Shown: positions 720 through 9,722 of the stretch, in pieces | Layout of the letters: each line of letters opens with the position of its first letter | How positions within the stretch are numbered: the stretch's first letter is position 1 | Source of the DNA: Planctomycetota bacterium | GTDB taxonomy: Bacteria > Planctomycetota > Phycisphaerae > Phycisphaerales > SM1A02 | Length of the DNA stretch: 42,049 bases | NCBI GenBank assembly: GCA_003671055.1 | Contig: QWPV01000017.1 | Location: 1 to 42,049 of the forward strand | Reading direction: 5' to 3' | Position numbers and translations under genes: made by a program | Notes under the pieces: model-generated | Told to the model about the DNA's origin: nothing | The model's input: the letters and a program-made list of their open reading frames with translations, nothing else | The model's database searches: none

Positions 720-1152
720 GAGACTGAGTCATGCGTTGTTTCTCTCATCACCCTGAGAGCGACTTTCAACCGCATGAGATGACGGACGCACGCCGCAGGA
801 TGTGGCGGAGCCGAGCAGCCACTGCTCGGGCGCTGAACGGAAGCAATTGCGCGCGCTCCAACGATTCCCTGAGCGGACATGAGGACTCCGACCCGCACAG
901 GTTTCAGTGTTGTTTGCAGCAGAGGGCACTCCGCGACTTGGGATGGTCGGCGAGTGGATGGACCCTCCTTGTACTGGTCAGGGAAGCACGGAGTGCGCCC
1001 CCTGACCCCGAGTCGAGCGACCTCGCGATTGACTCGGTGGCCAGCCACGGAACCAGCTGCTGCTTACGGTCCCACCACGATGGAGCCTTCCCACGCGAAG
1101 GCTTCATCCAAACACTTCGCCGCGGATCCACCTCCGCGGCGAAGTGCTTTTT
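720..1152 (+). ncRNA. Candidate structured non-coding RNA (family not recognised)
   Basis: Bases 631-1186 hold no convincing protein gene: the open frames there are rich in rare-looking Arg, Cys and Ser codons and resemble no family. Instead there is a chain of local stems: 729-777 (TCATGCG with CGCATGA, enclosing CTCTCA/TGAGAG), 791-807 (7 bp with one G-T pair, loop GGA), 811-829 (7 bp), 976-1007 (8 bp outer stem, inner GCAC/GTGC with loop GGA), 1008-1037 (7 bp), 1084-1103 (7 bp) and finally a 14-bp stem with T5 at 1113-1152. This ordering, ending in an intrinsic terminator, is what an independent small RNA of about 430 nt would show. I looked for signatures of RNase P RNA, tmRNA, SRP RNA, 6S RNA and the cobalamin riboswitch and found none. 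Several loops expose GGA, so a CsrA-binding RNA is possible but unproven. The 5' end is a guess. Confidence 0.45.
1113..1152 (+). terminator. Strong intrinsic terminator
   Basis: Perfect 14-bp stem (1113-1126 with 1133-1146, arm CACTTCGCCGCGGA), 6-base loop, followed by C and five T (1148-1152). This is the clearest Rho-independent terminator in the window. There is no gene immediately upstream, which supports transcription of the 720-1112 region. Confidence 0.85.
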
Positions 1153-1267: not shown

Positions 1268-1741
1268 ATGATCGATGTTGACTGCTACCGCATCGTGCGT
1301 GACGCACTGACGCTCGAACACGCGTGGCATGTGATCGCCGCACGCGACATCGCTCAAGGAACAACGATCCTCGAGATTGAAGGCGTGGAATGCGCGATGC
1401 CCACACGCCATTCGGTGCAGTTCGGGCCTCGCCTGCACATCACGCCGCCAGCAGGCTTAGTCGATGGCAGCGACACGCTGCCGAATCTCGAAGGTCACAC
1501 GGATGGCCATTTCGGTTGGCGCTACCTCGATCACTCGTGCGCGCCCAACTGCACGCTCGACGCTCGCTTGCTCATCGCGATACGCCCGATTCGCGCCGGT
1601 GAAAAGATCTCGTTCGATTATGAAACGACCGAGCACACAATTTCGTCGCCGTTCAAATGCTCGTGCGGCAGTTGTGACGGTCGCATGATCGTCGGTCATG
1701 GTGCGCGTTCCCGTGCGTCGTCGCGAGCAACGCGCGCATGA
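1268..1741 (+). CDS. SET-domain protein (lysine methyltransferase-like) with post-SET motif
   Basis: A short (157 aa) protein that is nearly all SET domain, the fold that transfers methyl groups from S-adenosylmethionine to lysine side chains. Visible signatures are LDHSCAPNC (the R-F-x-N-H-S-C-x-P-N motif), AGEKISFDYE (the GEEL-x-x-DY motif with the catalytic Tyr) and a C-terminal CSCGSCDGRMIVG, a zinc-binding post-SET cluster. I chose ATG 1268 because the domain begins there; ATG 1214 and TTG 1187 are in frame but precede no recognisable domain, and no clear ribosome-binding site decides between them. The stop overlaps the start of the next gene (ATGA at 1738-1741), so the two are probably translationally coupled and functionally linked. 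Small stand-alone bacterial SET proteins have varied or unknown targets; the substrate here is not evident. Confidence 0.85.
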   Translation: MIDVDCYRIVRDALTLEHAWHVIAARDIAQGTTILEIEGVECAMPTRHSVQFGPRLHITPPAGLVDGSDTLPNLEGHTDGHFGWRYLDHSCAPNCTLDARLLIAIRPIRAGEKISFDYETTEHTISSPFKCSCGSCDGRMIVGHGARSRASSRATRA

Positions 1742-4700
1742 GCGATGTTCGCTCGGAACTGCTGCACGAGTGTTTTTCCCGCGCGGCTGCACTCTTTCCA
1801 GACGCGATCGCCATCGACGTTCCGCCCTCTGGCGCTCGTCGCAATCGGCTGCGATGCACCTACGCGCAACTTGATCAGGACTCGGATCGCCTCGCGCAAA
1901 CATTGCACGCGCGCGGCACGCAACTTGAGGAAATCGTTGTCGCGCTTCTCCCGCGCGAAGATCCCACGCTGTATGCGGCGCAACTCGGCGTGCTGAAGTC
2001 TGGCGGCGCGTACTGCGCACTCGATCCGAAGTTTCCTGATGCGCACATTCAATCTGTGCTCGATGACTGCGCGCCTCGAAGCGTGCTCACGAATGCTGTG
2101 GGCATTGCGCGACTCACTGCACTTGGTGTTGACGCGCGATGTCTCGTCGACGCCGCGGCCGTTGTGTCGACGATCACCGCGCCAACACACGCCGCTCTGC
2201 CTCTCCTCCCTCGTGAAGCTTCGCGCCTCGCGTACAGCATCTACACCTCAGGCACGACCGGCAAGCCCAAGGGCGTGCTGCTCGAACATCGTGGCATCGT
2301 GAATCTTGTGGAGAGCGATCGAAGCGAGTTTGGACTTCGCGCCGGTGATCGCGTCGCGCAATGTTCGTCCCCTGCGTATGACTCATCAATCGAAGAAACC
2401 TATCTCGCCTTCGCTTCGGGCGCGACGCTCGTCCCTCTCGATGATGAAACAGTCCGACTCGGTCCTGATCTCTTGCCATTCCTTCGCGACGAGCAGATCA
2501 ATGTCTTCTGCCCACCACCCACACTGCTGCGTGCGCTCGGATGCATAGATCCATCCCGCGAACTTCCTGCGCTGCGATTGCTCTATGTCGGTGGCGAAGC
2601 GCTCCCGCAAGATCTCGCCGATGTATTCGCGCCGCATTGCAGACTTGAAAATGGCTACGGACCTACTGAATGCAGCGTGACTGTCACGCGCTCCACCGTG
2701 CATGCTGGCGCACCAGTCACGATCGGGCGCGCGGTGCCGAACAATCGCGCGTACATCCTCGATGAGCGCGCAGGCACACTGGTGCGCGTTGCAGATGGCG
2801 AGTCTGGTGAACTTTGCATCGCTGGTGCAGGGCTCGCACGCGGCTATCGCGGTGATGCAGCACTCACGGCATCCAAATTTCCAACGGTAGATGGGCTCGG
2901 TCGCATCTATCGCACCGGCGACCTTGCGCGTGTGAACAGCGACGGCGCGCTTGAGTTCCTCGGCCGCATCGATGCGCAGGTGAAACTACGCGGCTATCGC
3001 GTCGAACTCGGCGCAGTTGAGCAAGCACTTCTTGCCATCGATGGAGTCAAGCACGCTGCAGCAGCAGTGCAACTGCGAGGCGACGAACCTCGCCTTGTCG
3101 CATTCCTCGTCGCCACCGACGCGCACGCGCCGCCATCGCTCGAACATGTTCGCGCAGCATTGCGCGTATCGCTGCCGATCTACATGGTGCCGTCAGATTT
3201 TGCTTTTCTTCTGTCGCTCCCCACCTCGATCGCCGGAAAGCTCGACCGTAAGCAACTCCCGCAACTCTTCAGCGAAGCAATCACTAGTACATCAACGATC
3301 GATGCTCTCGACGCGCCGCGCGACGCACTTGAACGGGCGATATGCCATGCATTCAGCACCGCAACACACCGTGCGTGTGGTCGCTCCTCAGATTTTTTCA
3401 CCGCGCTCGACGGCGACTCACTCACCGCCGTCGCAGCAGTGCTCATTCTGCGTCGCGAAACCCCGAGCCAACCGAGCGTGCATTTCGAGCGCGTCTCTGT
3501 GCGTGACATCTACACCGCCCGCACTGCAATGGCACTTGCGCAATCCATGCGTGAAGCAACCAGCGACGCGCAACCATTACGGGCGCGTCGCTCACTCTCG
3601 TCACGAGGCAATGCGTACATCGCGAGCGCTCTTCGTTTGGCGGCGATGTTGAGTGGTGTTGTGCTCTCAAGCGGCGCCACAATGCTCGGCGCGCTTTGGC
3701 TCTTCGAGAGCGTCCCGCTGGAAATCGGAAGCATTGCGTGGTTCATCGCTTCGGTGTCGCTCTTCCTCATGGCGCCTCTGGCGTGGCTCGTGCTCACCCT
3801 CGCGCTTGCGGTTGCCGCGAAGCGTTGGATCCTCGGCCGTGTGCGCAATGAAGTCATCGGCTACTGGTCGTGGCGGGGAAGCCAACTGTGGGTTGCGGCA
3901 GCATTGTCGCGACTCATTCCTTGGGGACTTGTGTACGGCACGACACTCGAAGGTTGGATGATGCGGCGGCTCGGTGCGGTCATTGGTGATCGCGTGCACT
4001 TCGCTCGAGGTGTTGAACTTCCGCACGGCGCTTTCGACTTACTCGAGATCGGCGATGACGCATGCTTCGCGCAAGATTCTGCACTCCGCGCACTCTCACT
4101 TGAAGATGGGCACTTGCTCGCGGGGCACATTCGAGTTGGCGCTGGAACGAGAGTTGGCGTGCGCGCGGCGCTCGAACCTCATTCGATCGTTGAAGAGTGC
4201 GCCGAAGTGGGCGCGCTCTCGCTGGTTGACCAAGGCCAGACTGTGCCCGCGCATCGATTGTGGATTGGAGTTCCTGCACGCGACGCATCAGCAACACGCG
4301 CGTCACCGACGCCACGCGATGGCCGCGCGATGTCGAGCAACTTGCACGCGCTGCTCGCGCTTGTGGGACGAGCGACTGGTATCTCCATCTTCGTCAACGC
4401 GCTGATCGCCGCCCTTGTCACGTTTGGGATGGGGCACGTGTTCGCATCGCTTCATGCTGGCGCGATGGCACCCGCGAATGTCCGCGATCTCTTGTTGCTC
4501 GTCGCAATCGCTTCGCTCCTCTTCGTACCCATTCGAATCGTTGGCACCGCGCTCCTCTGTCGATTACTCCCGCGCGTGCGCGAGGGAACGTTTCACCGCT
4601 ACTCCGCGACGAGTCTTCTCGCGACCGCAAAGACGCAGATGCTCGACGACGCGTGCGTGTGGCTCTCGGGGTCGATGTACTGGCCGGTGTGGCTTCGCGT

Positions 4701-5724
4701 GGCTGGCGCGAAGATCGGACGCGGCTGCGAGATCAGCACGATCATGGGAACGATTCCCGAGATGCTGACTGTCGGTGACGAAAGTTTCTTTGCGGATGGC
4801 ATCTATCTCGCGTCTGCAGAGTCCACGAGTGATGCCTTCACGGTGCGCGCGACAAGCATCGGCGCGCGCACATTCATCGGCAATCACGCGGTACTCGCGC
4901 AAGGCGCATCATGGTGCGATGACCTCTTCGTCGGCGTCTCTACTGCACCAGACGCCGCGCGTGTGCGTGAAAGAACAGGATGGTTCGGCGTTCCGACGAT
5001 GGAACTTCCGCGCCGCGAGATCGCCGTCGCACCGCGCGAAGACACGCATGATCCGTCCATGATTCGCCGATGCAATCGACTCGCGTGGGAAACCCTTCGC
5101 ATTGCGGTGCCCGTGTTTCCCGCAATCATGGGCACGCTCGCCTCCCTCATACTCCTCGAAGCGCACGCGCGCGGGATGACTGATGCGATGATTGCGTGGG
5201 TCCTCACGCCCTCCCTCTTCATCGCAAGCGCGATCACGCTCGGCGCAATGTTGATCGCAACAAAGTGGATCCTCCTCGGTCGCGTGCAACCTGGACAACA
5301 CGCGCTCTGGTCATGCTGGTGTTCGCGATGGGATTTCTTGTACGTCGTGTGGGGATACTGGGGTCGACGCGCACTCGCATCGCTGCAGGGCACGCTGCTC
5401 CTCAACGCGTACCTTCGACTCTCTGGCGCGCACATCGGCAAGCGCGTCGTACTCGGCCCTGGCTTCACGCAACTCGTCGATCCCGACATGCTCACGTTTG
5501 AAGATGACGCCACAGTTGCGTGTCAGTTTCAAGCACACAGTTTCGAAGATCGCATTCTCAAGATCGATCGCCTGCGCGTCGGTGCTCGCGCAAGCATCGG
5601 CGAGCAAACAGTCGTGTTCTACGGTGTGGATGTTGGCGAAGCCGCCATCGTCCGACCAAACGGAATCGTGATGAAGCGCACACACATCGCACCAAACACC
5701 GACTGCTGCGGTGCGCCGTGCTGA
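1738..5724 (+). CDS. Adenylation-carrier protein with six-helix triple beta-helix tail (epsilon-polylysine synthetase-like, TIGR02353 type)
   Basis: 1328 aa. Residues about 1-500 are an NRPS adenylation domain: YTSGTTGKPKG (core A3), YDSSIEE (A4, with the Asp that holds an alpha-amino group), NGYGPTE (A5), YRTGDL (A7) and GKLDRK (A10 Lys). Residues about 520-600 are a carrier domain with the phosphopantetheine Ser in DGDSL. No ordinary condensation or thioesterase domain follows. The rest has three pairs of transmembrane helices (about 626-690, 880-940, 1120-1177), each followed by a hexapeptide-repeat-like left-handed beta-helix region (about 740-860, 987-1085, 1227-1327). This is the architecture of Streptomyces epsilon-polylysine synthetase and related homopolymer synthetases, in which the tail joins amino acids into a peptide. 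The product is therefore probably a short amino-acid polymer made at the membrane; which amino acid is uncertain. Translationally coupled to the upstream SET gene. Confidence 0.9.
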   Translation: MSDVRSELLHECFSRAAALFPDAIAIDVPPSGARRNRLRCTYAQLDQDSDRLAQTLHARGTQLEEIVVALLPREDPTLYAAQLGVLKSGGAYCALDPKFPDAHIQSVLDDCAPRSVLTNAVGIARLTALGVDARCLVDAAAVVSTITAPTHAALPLLPREASRLAYSIYTSGTTGKPKGVLLEHRGIVNLVESDRSEFGLRAGDRVAQCSSPAYDSSIEETYLAFASGATLVPLDDETVRLGPDLLPFLRDEQINVFCPPPTLLRALGCIDPSRELPALRLLYVGGEALPQDLADVFAPHCRLENGYGPTECSVTVTRSTVHAGAPVTIGRAVPNNRAYILDERAGTLVRVADGESGELCIAGAGLARGYRGDAALTASKFPTVDGLGRIYRTGDLARVNSDGALEFLGRIDAQVKLRGYRVELGAVEQALLAIDGVKHAAAAVQLRGDEPRLVAFLVATDAHAPPSLEHVRAALRVSLPIYMVPSDFAFLLSLPTSIAGKLDRKQLPQLFSEAITSTSTIDALDAPRDALERAICHAFSTATHRACGRSSDFFTALDGDSLTAVAAVLILRRETPSQPSVHFERVSVRDIYTARTAMALAQSMREATSDAQPLRARRSLSSRGNAYIASALRLAAMLSGVVLSSGATMLGALWLFESVPLEIGSIAWFIASVSLFLMAPLAWLVLTLALAVAAKRWILGRVRNEVIGYWSWRGSQLWVAAALSRLIPWGLVYGTTLEGWMMRRLGAVIGDRVHFARGVELPHGAFDLLEIGDDACFAQDSALRALSLEDGHLLAGHIRVGAGTRVGVRAALEPHSIVEECAEVGALSLVDQGQTVPAHRLWIGVPARDASATRASPTPRDGRAMSSNLHALLALVGRATGISIFVNALIAALVTFGMGHVFASLHAGAMAPANVRDLLLLVAIASLLFVPIRIVGTALLCRLLPRVREGTFHRYSATSLLATAKTQMLDDACVWLSGSMYWPVWLRVAGAKIGRGCEISTIMGTIPEMLTVGDESFFADGIYLASAESTSDAFTVRATSIGARTFIGNHAVLAQGASWCDDLFVGVSTAPDAARVRERTGWFGVPTMELPRREIAVAPREDTHDPSMIRRCNRLAWETLRIAVPVFPAIMGTLASLILLEAHARGMTDAMIAWVLTPSLFIASAITLGAMLIATKWILLGRVQPGQHALWSCWCSRWDFLYVVWGYWGRRALASLQGTLLLNAYLRLSGAHIGKRVVLGPGFTQLVDPDMLTFEDDATVACQFQAHSFEDRILKIDRLRVGARASIGEQTVVFYGVDVGEAAIVRPNGIVMKRTHIAPNTDCCGAPC

Positions 5725-5825: not shown

Positions 5826-8800
5826 TCATTCAAGCCAGATGAGGCGCTCGGCGTAGCGGGCGCGGAGGGGTTTCGAATCGATCACTTCGAGGCTGCCTTC
5901 ATCGCCCGTCACCAAGAGCGCGTTTCCATCCGGCGACCACTCAAGTGTTACTACGGCATCCGCGACTGTAGGGAACGATGCGAGTTCATCTTGCGTCGCG
6001 CGTTCAAACAAGTGGATGCGACCATCGAGCCCACCTGTTGCAAGAAGCAATCCGTTGGGCGACTCTGCGATCGCAAGTGAACCACCGAGTCCGCCATTGA
6101 AACGACGGCGAACGGTTCCATCGGGTTCAACTTCCTCCACCAGCCCCTCCTCACTCGCGAGATACCTCGATGCGCCTACTTGCTGCACGATGCGCGTCTT
6201 CCCATAGAACCCCGTTCGCTCAGCACTCCATGCTGCTTCGACGTTTTCTGCTCGCGTCAACCGCACATTGTTGTACTCACTCATCGTGAGCAGCTGATCC
6301 TCCCCAATCCAGACCACGCCAACTGCTGCCTCTTCCGCGGCGGGAATCCAAATCCTCTGCGCCGCGCAGGTCGCGAGATCGATCAGCCACACAGATCCAT
6401 CAAGATGTGTTGCTGCAAGCAGCGCGCCGTTCTGACTGAACTCGAGATGCACAAAGCGACCATGCGACAAACACGCCGTCATATTGCCATTAGGCTCAAT
6501 GAGTTCTATCCCTTCAGTCGGGAGCGCGATCGCGCCACGGCGGCCATCGAGACTCAACGCTGTCACGCACGCCTGTTCAATCTTCGTTGCGCGGCGAAAG
6601 TTCCGCGGCGGCATGACCATACTGCAGTCCATCGCGACTCCGTGCTCGTCTACAAAGCGGATGCGGTGCGGCGTCAGCCATCGTGCCGCACTCTTTCCTC
6701 GAGTCCCGTCTTCACGCGAAGGAACGACGATGCGAGGAAACGGTTCCTGCAACTCCCATGTTGCAACGCCAATTCCAGCGGTAATCACGGTGTCCGCATC
6801 GACCCAGGCAACAGAGGACTGTGATCCATCTGGGCTATATCGCGCGACACGCTCTGTGCCATCTACTCCAAGAATGTGAACACGAGCGTCCCGACCAACG
6901 GTCGCGATGAAGAGACCATTCGGACTGAATGCAACCTGACGCACCGGATGACGCGTGCTCGCGATGCGCTGAGCGTCGCGACGCACCGCATCGCCAAGAT
7001 AAATTTCCATGTCAACGGCGAATGCAATCTTCACTCCATCAGGGCTCCACGCGACACTTGATACTGCGCCTTGAATCGCAATGAACGGAACAACTTCATT
7101 CCGATTCGGCCACCAACGAAGCACACCTTGCGCCGCGCTCGCGAGAAGCGCAGACTCACCATTCGGTTCCCACGCAATCTCGTTCACGCGCAGCACTTGC
7201 GCAGTCCCGCCTTGCGTGTTGGTCATCGTCCGATGCGACCCTCTGAAAAGATCGAACACTTCAACGCCACTTTCCGCACTGGCGACGAGCAATTCGAGTC
7301 CACCAGGCGACAAGGCCGAGGCGATGCATGCAGAGTCGAGCACGCCGAGCAGAATAGGATCATGCGCAGCATCACTAATCTCGGTGTTGATTTCCCACAC
7401 GCTTCCATCCACACAACCCGCATACGCGCGTCGCGCATCGGCAGTCAATTCAAGTGTGGTGACACGCGCGCGGAGCGTTGCCTCTCCAAACTTCGAGAGG
7501 TCAGCGAGATTCACCAATTGAATCGTCGAGTCGAGAGAAGACACCGCAGCACCAAGCTCTGGAGCAATCGCGAGAGCTCGTGTGTGCGCGCTGTTGGGAA
7601 CATCAAGCGCAAGCGCGCGGCCGTCGAGCGTGCGCTCGAGCGCGCGATGCACCCATGTCCATTCCGATCGTGGCGTGCGTGCAAGCACTTCGGCTGCTGC
7701 AACAGACTCGCCCAACTCAGTCAACAGTTCCGTGCGCGCGAGGCTTGCGAGATAAAGCGCGCGAGCCGTGCGCTGATTCGCAGCAAGACTCGAGACATAG
7801 CCAAGCGCGATTCCGGTCACAATCATCGCGAACACCGCGACGCCTACACGATGCTTTCGCACGAATCTTTTTGCAGCGACAAATCGATTCGGCGGCCGTG
7901 CAAGAATCGTTTCGTCAAGCACGAAGCGCCGCAGATCTGCCGCGAGTGCAGCTGCGGATTCGTACCGCGCATCGGGGTCCCTCGCCATCGCCTTCTCGAC
8001 GATCGTCTCGAGGTCACCTCGGAAGGCGCGCGATCGTGCACCCAACGGGCGCGGACCCTCTTCACAAATGATGCGCGCGGCTTCATGGATCGGAAGTTTG
8101 TCCACATCGCATGCACGCGCGCCTGAAAGCAATTCGTAGAGCAACGCCCCGAGTGCATACACATCGGTGCGCCCGTCAATCTTGTCCACCGCGCCAGACA
8201 CTTGCTCAGGACTCATGTAAGAGAGCGTGCCGACGATTGCGCCAACACGCGTGGCGAGCGTTCCCTCGCGAGCCAGCTCCTCCGTCGATCGTGCGATGCT
8301 GAAATCGACGAGTCGTGGCGTCTGATCGCGCCCAAAGAGCACGTTTGCGGGCTTGAGATCTCGGTGCACGATGCCGCGAAGATGTGCGTGATGCACGCCG
8401 TCGCAGAGTTGAGCGAAGACCAGCAGTCGATCTTTCAAGAGCGGCGCGAATGGAAGCGTCCACCACACATCAAACGTGCACGCGTCTTCAACCAACTCCA
8501 TCGCGATGTATGGTTCCGAGAGACCGTGACTCTGCTCAACACCCATCGCGTAGATGCGGGCAATCGCGGGATGCGAGAGTCTGCCGAGTAACTCGCCCTC
8601 GCGTTTAAATCGGCGCAACGCGCTTGGCCCCGCATACTCACGCCGAAGAAGTTTGACTGCAACACGTCGGCGTGGCGATGTTTGCTCCGCGCGGTACACC
8701 GCGCCAGTACTTCCACGACCGATGAGTGATTCGAGGAGGAAGCCACCAACCATCGATCCAACGCGCTCGAGATCTTCATCAACGACAGGCGGAAGATCGT

Positions 8801-9026
8801 CAAAGCACTCAGGGTCTGGAAGAAAGCCGAGTAACGATTGCACTTCTTCCACGATCTCCGGCCGATGCCCCCATGCCTTCAACAGATATGCAACGCGTTG
8901 ATCAACGGGCTCGCGAATGCATTCATCGAGCGCAGCTTCAACATCCGCGATGCACAACACAACCTTCGCTCGAGCTCCCTGCGTCGAGTGCGCGTCGGTA
9001 GATGGCGTGTCGTCAGAATGTGTCAC
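5826..9026 (-). CDS. Membrane-anchored Ser/Thr protein kinase with WD40-like beta-propeller
   Basis: 1066 aa. After about 95 residues of leader comes a Hanks-type kinase domain (about 96-370): glycine loop GRGSTG, VAVKLL with the ATP-binding Lys near 125, catalytic HRDLKPANVL (221-230), metal-binding motif written DFS instead of DFG (241-243), and SPEQ in the activation segment. A single transmembrane helix follows at about 385-410. The remaining 600 residues hold recurring blades of the SPDG/SPNG type (AWSPDGVKI, AFSPNGLF, EWSPDGNAL), a WD40-like propeller that is probably extracytoplasmic. Planctomycetes carry many such kinases next to ECF sigma factors, as here (18-base gap). The start is GTG 9026, with no obvious ribosome-binding site. 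Likely role: transmitting an external signal to the cytoplasm or to the partner sigma factor; the ligand is unknown. Confidence 0.9.
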   Translation of the reverse strand: MTHSDDTPSTDAHSTQGARAKVVLCIADVEAALDECIREPVDQRVAYLLKAWGHRPEIVEEVQSLLGFLPDPECFDDLPPVVDEDLERVGSMVGGFLLESLIGRGSTGAVYRAEQTSPRRRVAVKLLRREYAGPSALRRFKREGELLGRLSHPAIARIYAMGVEQSHGLSEPYIAMELVEDACTFDVWWTLPFAPLLKDRLLVFAQLCDGVHHAHLRGIVHRDLKPANVLFGRDQTPRLVDFSIARSTEELAREGTLATRVGAIVGTLSYMSPEQVSGAVDKIDGRTDVYALGALLYELLSGARACDVDKLPIHEAARIICEEGPRPLGARSRAFRGDLETIVEKAMARDPDARYESAAALAADLRRFVLDETILARPPNRFVAAKRFVRKHRVGVAVFAMIVTGIALGYVSSLAANQRTARALYLASLARTELLTELGESVAAAEVLARTPRSEWTWVHRALERTLDGRALALDVPNSAHTRALAIAPELGAAVSSLDSTIQLVNLADLSKFGEATLRARVTTLELTADARRAYAGCVDGSVWEINTEISDAAHDPILLGVLDSACIASALSPGGLELLVASAESGVEVFDLFRGSHRTMTNTQGGTAQVLRVNEIAWEPNGESALLASAAQGVLRWWPNRNEVVPFIAIQGAVSSVAWSPDGVKIAFAVDMEIYLGDAVRRDAQRIASTRHPVRQVAFSPNGLFIATVGRDARVHILGVDGTERVARYSPDGSQSSVAWVDADTVITAGIGVATWELQEPFPRIVVPSREDGTRGKSAARWLTPHRIRFVDEHGVAMDCSMVMPPRNFRRATKIEQACVTALSLDGRRGAIALPTEGIELIEPNGNMTACLSHGRFVHLEFSQNGALLAATHLDGSVWLIDLATCAAQRIWIPAAEEAAVGVVWIGEDQLLTMSEYNNVRLTRAENVEAAWSAERTGFYGKTRIVQQVGASRYLASEEGLVEEVEPDGTVRRRFNGGLGGSLAIAESPNGLLLATGGLDGRIHLFERATQDELASFPTVADAVVTLEWSPDGNALLVTGDEGSLEVIDSKPLRARYAERLIWLE

Positions 9027-9044: not shown

Positions 9045-9722
9045 TCAGGCATATGGGGAGATATCGGGCAATTCCCCCGTCATCCCGAGCCTTCGCGCAA
9101 AATCTCGGCGAAGCCAAGATCGCGCAAAGTTCCAATGCTTGCTCACCGTGCGCGGTCGAATGCCGAGTGCTTCGCCCGCTTGTTCAATCGAGAGCCCGCA
9201 GATGTATCGAAGCGCGACGACTTGTGATGCGATTGCATGCACTTGTTCAAGATCCGCCATCGAGCAGAGCAAACTCTCATCCGCTGCGGCAACCGCATCG
9301 TCAAAGCGCGCGAGCGTTGGCGCATCGAAGCCCAATGGAATTGTGCGGTAAACGCCACCACCAGAGGGAAGGCCAATCGTCTTCCGATGATCGACAAGAA
9401 ACCGCATCATCGTCTTCGCGAGTGAACCGAAGAACTGCGCACGACTGTCCCACTCCGTACCTGGTGACTGCTTCGCGAAAAAAGCGAGGAAGGACTTTTG
9501 AATAAGCGTCGTTGGCCCCGACTGATCGATGTCTCCAAGTTTCGGCGCACCAAGCATGCGTCGCGCGGTGGAGCGCAACTCTTCGTAGACACACTGCCAC
9601 ACCTTTTCCGCAGCTTCGCGGTTACCCGCTTTCGCTTCGTTGACAAGGTCGGTGAGGTCTTCAGGAATATGGACGATCATGGGTTGGCAGCTCTTCGACT
9701 TGTGTGGGCTGAGGGACGACAA
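9045..9722 (-). CDS. ECF-family RNA polymerase sigma factor (TIGR02999-like)
   Basis: 225 aa. The N-terminal half has sigma region 2 features (ATTLIQKSF-like stretch PTTLIQKSFLAFF and a WDSRAQFFGSLAKTMMRFLVDH block). The C-terminal half has region 4, with the helix-turn-helix reading EQAGEALGIRPRTVSKHW. The order and the DHRK motif resemble the sigma factors grouped as TIGR02999, common in planctomycetes and acidobacteria beside Ser/Thr kinases. An internal ATG at 9680 (MIVHIPEDL) is an equally good start, because the first 14 residues are not conserved-looking. It is the first gene of a two-gene unit with the kinase at 5826-9026. No anti-sigma gene is visible, so control through the kinase is plausible. 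Confidence 0.88.
   Translation of the reverse strand: MSSLSPHKSKSCQPMIVHIPEDLTDLVNEAKAGNREAAEKVWQCVYEELRSTARRMLGAPKLGDIDQSGPTTLIQKSFLAFFAKQSPGTEWDSRAQFFGSLAKTMMRFLVDHRKTIGLPSGGGVYRTIPLGFDAPTLARFDDAVAAADESLLCSMADLEQVHAIASQVVALRYICGLSIEQAGEALGIRPRTVSKHWNFARSWLRRDFARRLGMTGELPDISPYA

Follow-up and report, generated by a model that had tools for sequence, protein, structure and literature searches.

Most of the SET-domain enzymes that have been studied are protein-lysine methyltransferases, the textbook histone methyltransferases among them, and they classically act on peptidyl lysine. A different use of the fold is described for BurB, a SET-domain methionine S-methyltransferase of Burkholderia thailandensis that acts on free methionine (PMC12542666) and has a homolog in Streptomyces mobaraensis, MSMT (PMC7496086, PMC12542666). 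In the sections of those papers that treat the pathway, it leads to dimethylsulfoniopropionate (DMSP), which is loaded by a dedicated adenylation (A) domain beside a line of the nonribosomal peptide synthetase (NRPS) and polyketide synthase type (PMC7496086). The CHPA synthetases include epsilon-poly-L-lysine synthetase (Pls) and delta-poly-L-ornithine synthetase (PosA), in which an A domain and a thiolation (T) domain are followed by three membrane/beta-helix domains, and in which the A domain uses an aspartate for the alpha-amine and a glutamate for the side-chain cation. In the pocket described for PosA, the side-chain amine is bound by Glu221 with the help of Thr304 and Ser313 (PMC10522769).

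Here we describe a locus that has features of both systems. It lies in a stretch of 42,049 nucleotides (hereafter the window) from a Planctomycetota bacterium (assembly GCA_003671055.1, contig QWPV01000017.1), where a gene for a BurB-like SET-domain methyltransferase of 157 aa (1268..1741, + strand, with its ATG at 1268 and its stop ending at 1741) shares the four bases ATGA, SET stop and synthetase start (1738..1741, +), with a gene for a single-module Pls/PosA-like synthetase of 1328 aa (1738..5724, +). The original prediction, made from the letters of the window, had described such an overlap between a minimal SET protein and a 1328-aa protein of A-T-three-TM/beta-helix layout, and the open reading frames (ORFs), profile searches and clusters of hydrophobic segments bear this out. 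We find that the pair is not peculiar to its source genome, which according to the original prediction would have refuted it: a SET gene of the window type lies directly upstream of the synthetase in 56 of the 95 assessable nonredundant loci, and record titles place these in five phyla. Each of the two protein families has been described before; what appears to be new is that they recur as a pair, that the pair is spread over phyla and that it is tied to a single orphan adenylation code. As had been anticipated, a SET gene combined with a Pls/PosA-type synthetase is the subject of no paper that we found in open-licence PubMed Central. We favor, with a probability of roughly 40%, the reading that the two genes form a compact natural-product pathway in which a methylated cationic amino acid made by the SET protein would feed the synthetase.

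A small SET protein next to a CHPA-like synthetase

The upstream gene product is a SET protein by profile (Pfam SET, 41.8 bits, E = 1.5e-10, above the family cut-off) and by its NHSC-type (DHSCAPN), FDY-type (FDY, with Tyr118) and post-SET cysteine (CSCGSCDG) motifs, and its gene at 1268-1741 gives the only Pfam-SET match at E ≤ 0.001 in the source genome. Its best sequence match in the PDB is BurB (E = 2.7e-8; runner-up 3.4e-5), and BurB also tops the Foldseek search with the AlphaFold model of the protein (pLDDT 84), at E = 1.8e-9 and 25% identity, followed by ASH1L at 7.8e-7. As the nearest solved fold to this predicted model, BurB points weakly to membership among the BurB-type methionine S-methyltransferases. 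Given that BurB is the closest solved relative by both sequence and fold, the SET protein is predicted more likely to be a small-molecule methyltransferase than a protein-lysine enzyme. The SET domain called in the original prediction is therefore real, but the accompanying premise that SET domains methylate lysine amino groups looks unsafe for a protein closer to BurB than to the histone-lysine enzymes of the PDB.

His89, Cys91, Tyr118, Cys131, Cys133 and Cys136 are invariant in 24 aligned SET rows. His89 and Tyr118 correspond to BurB His93 and Tyr124, in a sequence alignment whose BurB numbering is consistent with the residues named in the structural sections of PMC12542666. His93, Arg133 and His138 of BurB contact S-adenosylmethionine; the last two have no conserved counterpart among relatives of the SET protein. 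BurB Ser88, which is close to the active site, aligns with an invariant Trp84 or its neighbor, ambiguous by one residue, and the stretch DYxxTEx6FxCxCG is common to both proteins. BurB is described as gripping methionine by main-chain contacts (PMC12542666), so that sequence cannot tell which amino acid the SET protein uses. Both are small free-standing SET proteins beside an NRPS-type line; BurB, however, is one of four DMSP-making enzymes, whereas no second pathway gene recurs as widely as SET at the SET-synthetase loci.

The downstream gene product begins with an A domain (1774..3267, +; Pfam AMP-binding at residues 13-370, E = 8e-67; TIGR01733, 355 bits) and continues with a T domain (3337..3540, +), whose Pfam PP-binding match is weak (residues 534-601, E = 0.05) and whose phosphopantetheine serine, Ser561, is kept in 94 of 94 aligned relatives. 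The remainder is a TIGR02353-like membrane polymerization/condensation region (3631..5718, +), placed by profile and hydrophobic segments. Its match to TIGR02353 spans residues 632-1327 (E = 3e-106) and profile positions 5-694 of 695, and scores 356.3 bits against a curated cut-off of 423 bits; the synthetase is thus a relative of Pls and PosA and not a formal member of that family. The cut-off is exceeded in none of the 181 genomes of the same GTDB family. Hydrophobic segments form three clusters, at about residues 638-699, 872-936 and 1122-1180, consistent with three transmembrane pairs and with the A-T-C1-C2-C3 layout of CHPA synthetases (the T domain being weak by Pfam), and one further marginal segment (553-571) lies inside the T domain. 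The window synthetase therefore shares the domain order of Pls and PosA and differs from them in its TIGR02353 score, its adenylation code and its SET partner gene.

One adenylation code and the loci that carry it

Motifs and alignment give the A domain the ten-residue code DSECYGGVTK (D215, S216, E219, C258, Y283, G285, G306, V314, T315 and K501), at positions placed by GrsA numbering. Asp215 and Glu219 are invariant in a 16-row alignment, which gives the pocket the acidic pair of the CHPA synthetases. From PosA to the window synthetase Glu221 is kept as Glu219, Thr304 is replaced by Gly306 and Ser313 by Thr315, and we infer that the end of the pocket is roomier and less hydrogen-bonding, as would suit a methylated amine. 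A methylated cationic polymer, as in the original prediction, is still a tenable product of the pair, and Glu219 is in place; the code, however, differs from the DAESIGTVVK of lysine-type paralogs.

DSECYGGVTK is also printed for a Bdellovibrionales CHPA homolog, Bdello_A (OFZ39577.1; Patel and Gulick 2023, PMC10522769), and since all ten residues are identical OFZ39577.1 probably belongs to the same subfamily as the window synthetase. In the part of that study devoted to Bdello_A, its A domain showed no higher activity on the known diamino substrates and modest activity on arginine, and Patel and Gulick proposed a larger analog as its substrate (PMC10522769). Only the A domain of the homolog is assayed in that paper, whose main text mentions neither "SET domain" nor "methyltransferase". 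The description of the window protein as polylysine-synthetase-like thus fits its architecture but not its substrate, insofar as the published account of an A domain with the identical code reports no diamino preference (PMC10522769).

We compared codes in 94 aligned nonredundant rows longer than 1000 aa. The exact code is present in 51 of the 52 synthetases with a linked SET gene, in 30 of the 38 without one (a class that includes 5 rows with an unlinked SET gene) and in all 4 rows near contig edges; 5 of the 30 are known to have a SET gene elsewhere. Nine rows deviate, eight of them in loci without a linked SET gene (1/52 vs 8/38; Fisher p = 0.004, or p = 0.017 with two sister pairs merged, relatedness being otherwise uncorrected). 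Drifted codes in loci without a linked SET gene include DAESYGAVTK (L168), DSESHGDVVK (L154) and DSECHGDVTK (L163), whose substrates have perhaps changed; the first shares more with the lysine-type code.

A within-genome control was provided by five actinobacterial genomes chosen for having the pair and searched with TIGR02353. Of the 14 matches, five lie below the cut-off, one per genome, and the DSECYGGVTK loci with a SET gene likewise number one per genome. The other nine, from three genomes, exceed the cut-off; four of their codes are the lysine-type DAESIGTVVK, one is DFEYLGTVTK, three are of the DIWQST type and one is unreadable. As no SET match was found in the 12-kb stretches around these nine paralogs even at E ≤ 10, the SET gene in these five genomes, judged by sequence, tracks the pocket and not the Pls architecture.

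Recurrence and surroundings of the pair

Among 101 genomes (the source genome and 100 relatives), the SET query matched 12 at E below 1e-16, and all 12 also have the synthetase. A long synthetase match (>200 bits) was obtained in 15, including one cut at a contig start (G001) and two without a linked SET gene (G027 and G044). The synthetase region was detected at E ≤ 1e-30 in 55 of the 181 genomes of the GTDB family and in 17 of 392 genomes sampled from the phylum; two of the latter hold short partial matches (G298 and G461) and one exceeds the TIGR02353 cut-off (G460), which leaves 14 genomes with a synthetase of the subfamily. The SET type is present in nine of these and was not found at E ≤ 1e-12 in the other five (G027, G281, G312, G324 and G375). 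Viewed from the SET side, 11 of the 392 genomes have the type (>160 bits; next match 97 bits), and because 10 of these 11 also show a synthetase, adjacent in nine and unlinked in G272, the pairing is far beyond chance. Two of the nine adjacent pairs lie at contig edges, and G387 shows only a 152-aa N-terminal fragment of the synthetase; TIGR02353 was not found elsewhere in that genome, which is 77% complete.

A wider scan covered 84,980 species genomes, many of the records being metagenome-assembled genomes (MAGs). It contributed 80 loci, the best among the matches listed, so that the proportions are no census, and phyla were taken from record titles. On that basis the linked pair occurs in at least five phyla: SET lies directly upstream in the Actinomycetota Kutzneria, Planosporangium, Streptomyces nanshensis and Amycolatopsis taiwanensis, and also in Acidobacteriota, Verrucomicrobiota and Armatimonadota. 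The 150 raw rows, duplicates included, comprise 75 with SET, 50 without, 6 at edges and 19 lacking the N-terminus. Removal of near-identical sequences at 95% left 99 nonredundant loci, of which 56 have SET, 39 do not and 4 are too near a contig edge. This count leaves out seven ordinary NRPSs (L223, L224, L226, L227, L229, L230 and L231), two poor or fragmentary synthetases (L211 and L215), six SET-linked loci whose synthetase is split or cut (L133, L135, L202, L206, L265 and L268) and the 19 rows without an N-terminus, and it scores as linked one locus (L059, in G014) whose SET gene is a fragment at a contig start, with the remainder at the end of another contig. Contig edges were considered as the cause of the SET-less loci and rejected, as in all 39 the contig continues upstream for over 700 bases without a linked SET gene.

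The spacing of the two genes, with the start placed by homology, lies between -44 and +48 bp in 72 of the 75 raw pairs. When neighbors were clustered in 109 loci (synthetase >800 bits, duplicates included), SET was the most widespread family (60/109); those after it reach at most 18 loci, mostly in close relatives, with a few generic families at varying distances. Greedy ORF calling on high-GC contigs yields shadow ORFs, so that non-SET families may be missed in this count, and the clusters are not profile-annotated. A single replacement enzyme beside the SET-less synthetases was sought among these families and rejected on the same figures. One locus carries two tandem SET genes upstream of one synthetase (L108, 3756-5060). 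SET and synthetase distances are correlated (r = 0.79 over 51 pairs, reached in 0 of 2000 permutations), also among 22 distant pairs (r = 0.58, 0 of 5000).

Synthetases lacking a visible linked SET gene were surveyed in 35 genomes, four of them cut or at contig edges (G001, G324, G375 and L157) and with G387 and G550 added. A SET protein of the same type is encoded elsewhere (E below 1e-45) in six (G272, G585, G587, G590, G594 and G598), in G585 possibly across a contig break. The synthetase of an isolate, Novosphingobium fuchskuhlense, has no linked SET gene. A second small SET type, with FYPSTEW in place of FDYxTTE, occurs in two sphingomonad genomes that have the synthetase but no linked SET gene and in one planctomycete (L257, L258 and L271), and might substitute for the missing SET protein.

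The window opens inside a gene for a B12-dependent ribonucleotide reductase, of which it includes the C-terminal part (22-630; recognized by a partial NCBIfam PRK06556 match). Between it and the SET gene, a conserved structured noncoding region of about 450 nt (690-1155, +) aligns in three genomes of the genus with 76% mean column identity, 180 predicted pairs and 29 two-sided changes. Of 61 family genomes 10 give a match, three being the source genome and two congeners and the other seven sharing a core of about 50 nt. It has only weak matches in Rfam, none at gathering score, and is neither the RNase P nor the tmRNA locus, both of which are located elsewhere in the source genome; it is possibly an undescribed RNA family. 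At its end stands a strong intrinsic terminator (1113..1146, +; z = -8.3 for 1085-1160), which likely sets the SET-synthetase pair apart from the upstream transcript. Downstream and convergent with the synthetase are genes for a 1066-aa protein (5826-9026, -), by eye a Ser/Thr kinase with a repeat domain, and for a 225-aa sigma-factor-like protein (9045-9722, -); ORFs of similar sizes occupy the same place in L054, L055 and L056.

Readings of the pairing

The reading that we favor draws on what sequence and comparison establish, that is, the two-gene module, the DSECYGGVTK pocket with its Glu219, the BurB-like fold prediction and the correlated divergence of the two proteins. Working in the manner of BurB, the SET protein would place a methyl group on a heteroatom in the side chain of a free basic amino acid, and the likeliest candidate is lysine, methylated at N-epsilon, or something closely related to it. 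The pocket of the A domain would be shaped to this bulkier methylated cation, Glu219 pairing with its charge, Tyr283 forming an aromatic wall and Gly306 sitting where Thr304 of PosA hydrogen-bonds the amine. The methylated residue would be loaded onto the T domain, and the membrane-embedded C-terminal region may string such residues together as a short cationic chain, with release probably at the membrane. BurB offers support, as the nearest solved structure acts on a free amino acid, methionine, in a pathway described as having an A domain dedicated to a zwitterion. The more specific version, in which the SET protein N-methylates a free basic amino acid and the one-module membrane synthetase polymerizes it to a class of N-methylated cationic polymers, is a tentative proposal and somewhat less probable.

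Several points weigh against this reading. No activity measurement is known to us for the SET protein or for the synthetase. BurB methylates sulfur and not nitrogen. The strongest objection comes from the 30 synthetases that retain the exact code without a linked SET gene: this substrate is apparently also used where SET is missing, if the methylated residue has no other source. L183, in an actinomycetotal MAG, has the code and no linked SET gene, and 21 of the 35 surveyed genomes without a linked SET gene show no SET at E ≤ 1e-8, 8 more having only weaker matches. Conversely, one phylum genome (G550, locus L266; 91% complete) encodes a SET protein of this type, but the search for a synthetase found none there. 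On the synthetase tree (FastTree, with 22 open forks and composition warnings), SET-linked and unlinked sequences are interleaved, with at least 21 gains or losses of the linked SET gene. Finally, shared vertical descent, which does contribute here, can also yield the correlation of distances.

Retention of the code could be explained equally well if SET tailors the product. One unmethylated cationic amino acid would then be used everywhere and the SET protein would methylate the finished or growing chain, or the residue bound to the T domain, as an optional decoration that might, for example, protect the producer or block degradation. We regard this as unlikely, though it is the strongest of the alternatives. 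The many comings and goings of linked SET genes on the tree and the classical action of SET enzymes on peptidyl lysine agree with it. It accounts less well for the concentration of code drift where no SET gene is linked, which ties pocket and SET together, and for the nearest solved relative, BurB, which uses a free amino acid. It is also at odds with the reported behavior of the A domain with the identical code, which did not prefer plain diamino acids and was only modestly active on arginine (PMC10522769).

The rank of BurB by sequence and fold and the shared DYxxTEx6FxCxCG stretch could also mean that the SET protein is itself a methionine S-methyltransferase, with the A domain activating S-methylmethionine and the product being a peptide or conjugate that bears a sulfonium. 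A pocket with an acidic residue would accommodate a cation of any kind, and BurA is described as having one placed for the sulfonium (PMC7496086). Yet the main-chain contacts of BurB with methionine leave no signature residue by which to recognize such an enzyme (PMC12542666), Arg133 of BurB, a contact to the ribose of S-adenosylmethionine, is not conserved in the SET protein, and the equivalent of Asp235 is kept in the window synthetase and absent from BurA. Moreover, the recurrent neighbors, in clusters that are not profile-annotated, include no conspicuous decarboxylase or transaminase family, and the isopeptide chemistry of Pls and PosA needs a side-chain amine, which a sulfonium residue lacks. 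We consider this explanation improbable.

Equally improbable, in our view, is that SET regulates or protects the synthetase by methylating one of its lysines or a lysine in some host protein. Such a role would be in keeping with the protein-lysine specificity of most studied SET enzymes, and the products of overlapping genes may meet; however, 39 of the 95 loci lack a linked SET gene, and the seven lysine columns conserved in 52 SET-linked synthetases are equally so in 33 without SET, with gaps at three. A lysine target with a SET-dependent footprint on the synthetase is accordingly rejected, as none of the conserved lysine columns disappears where SET is missing. The suggestion in the original prediction that the synthetase is tuned by SET thus has no footprint in the sequences, although these columns concern the synthetase and leave room for a different target. 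A historical operon without shared chemistry, in which SET has an unrelated housekeeping role, is very unlikely, for although G550 has the SET type without a synthetase, the two co-occur in 10 of 11 phylum genomes, are linked in five phyla and still co-occur in at least five cases where the SET copy is unlinked.

The presence of the same two-gene set across several phyla suggests a methylated natural product. If the more specific, N-methylating version is true, a two-gene pathway in at least five phyla would make an undescribed class of polymer and would explain the orphan DSECYGGVTK code, and no earlier SET enzyme is known to us that is dedicated to supplying a natural product with a nitrogen-methylated building block. 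The natural-product SET cases known to us are BurB and its homolog MSMT, and a SET gene tied to one adenylation code across phyla is a testable candidate for a second, more widespread case. Isolates put the question within reach, with a linked SET gene in Kutzneria, Amycolatopsis, Streptomyces nanshensis and Planosporangium and none in Novosphingobium. By predicting methylated amino acids, the neighboring SET gene may offer a way into the question of what is used by the DSECYGGVTK synthetases that emerged from the PosA study.

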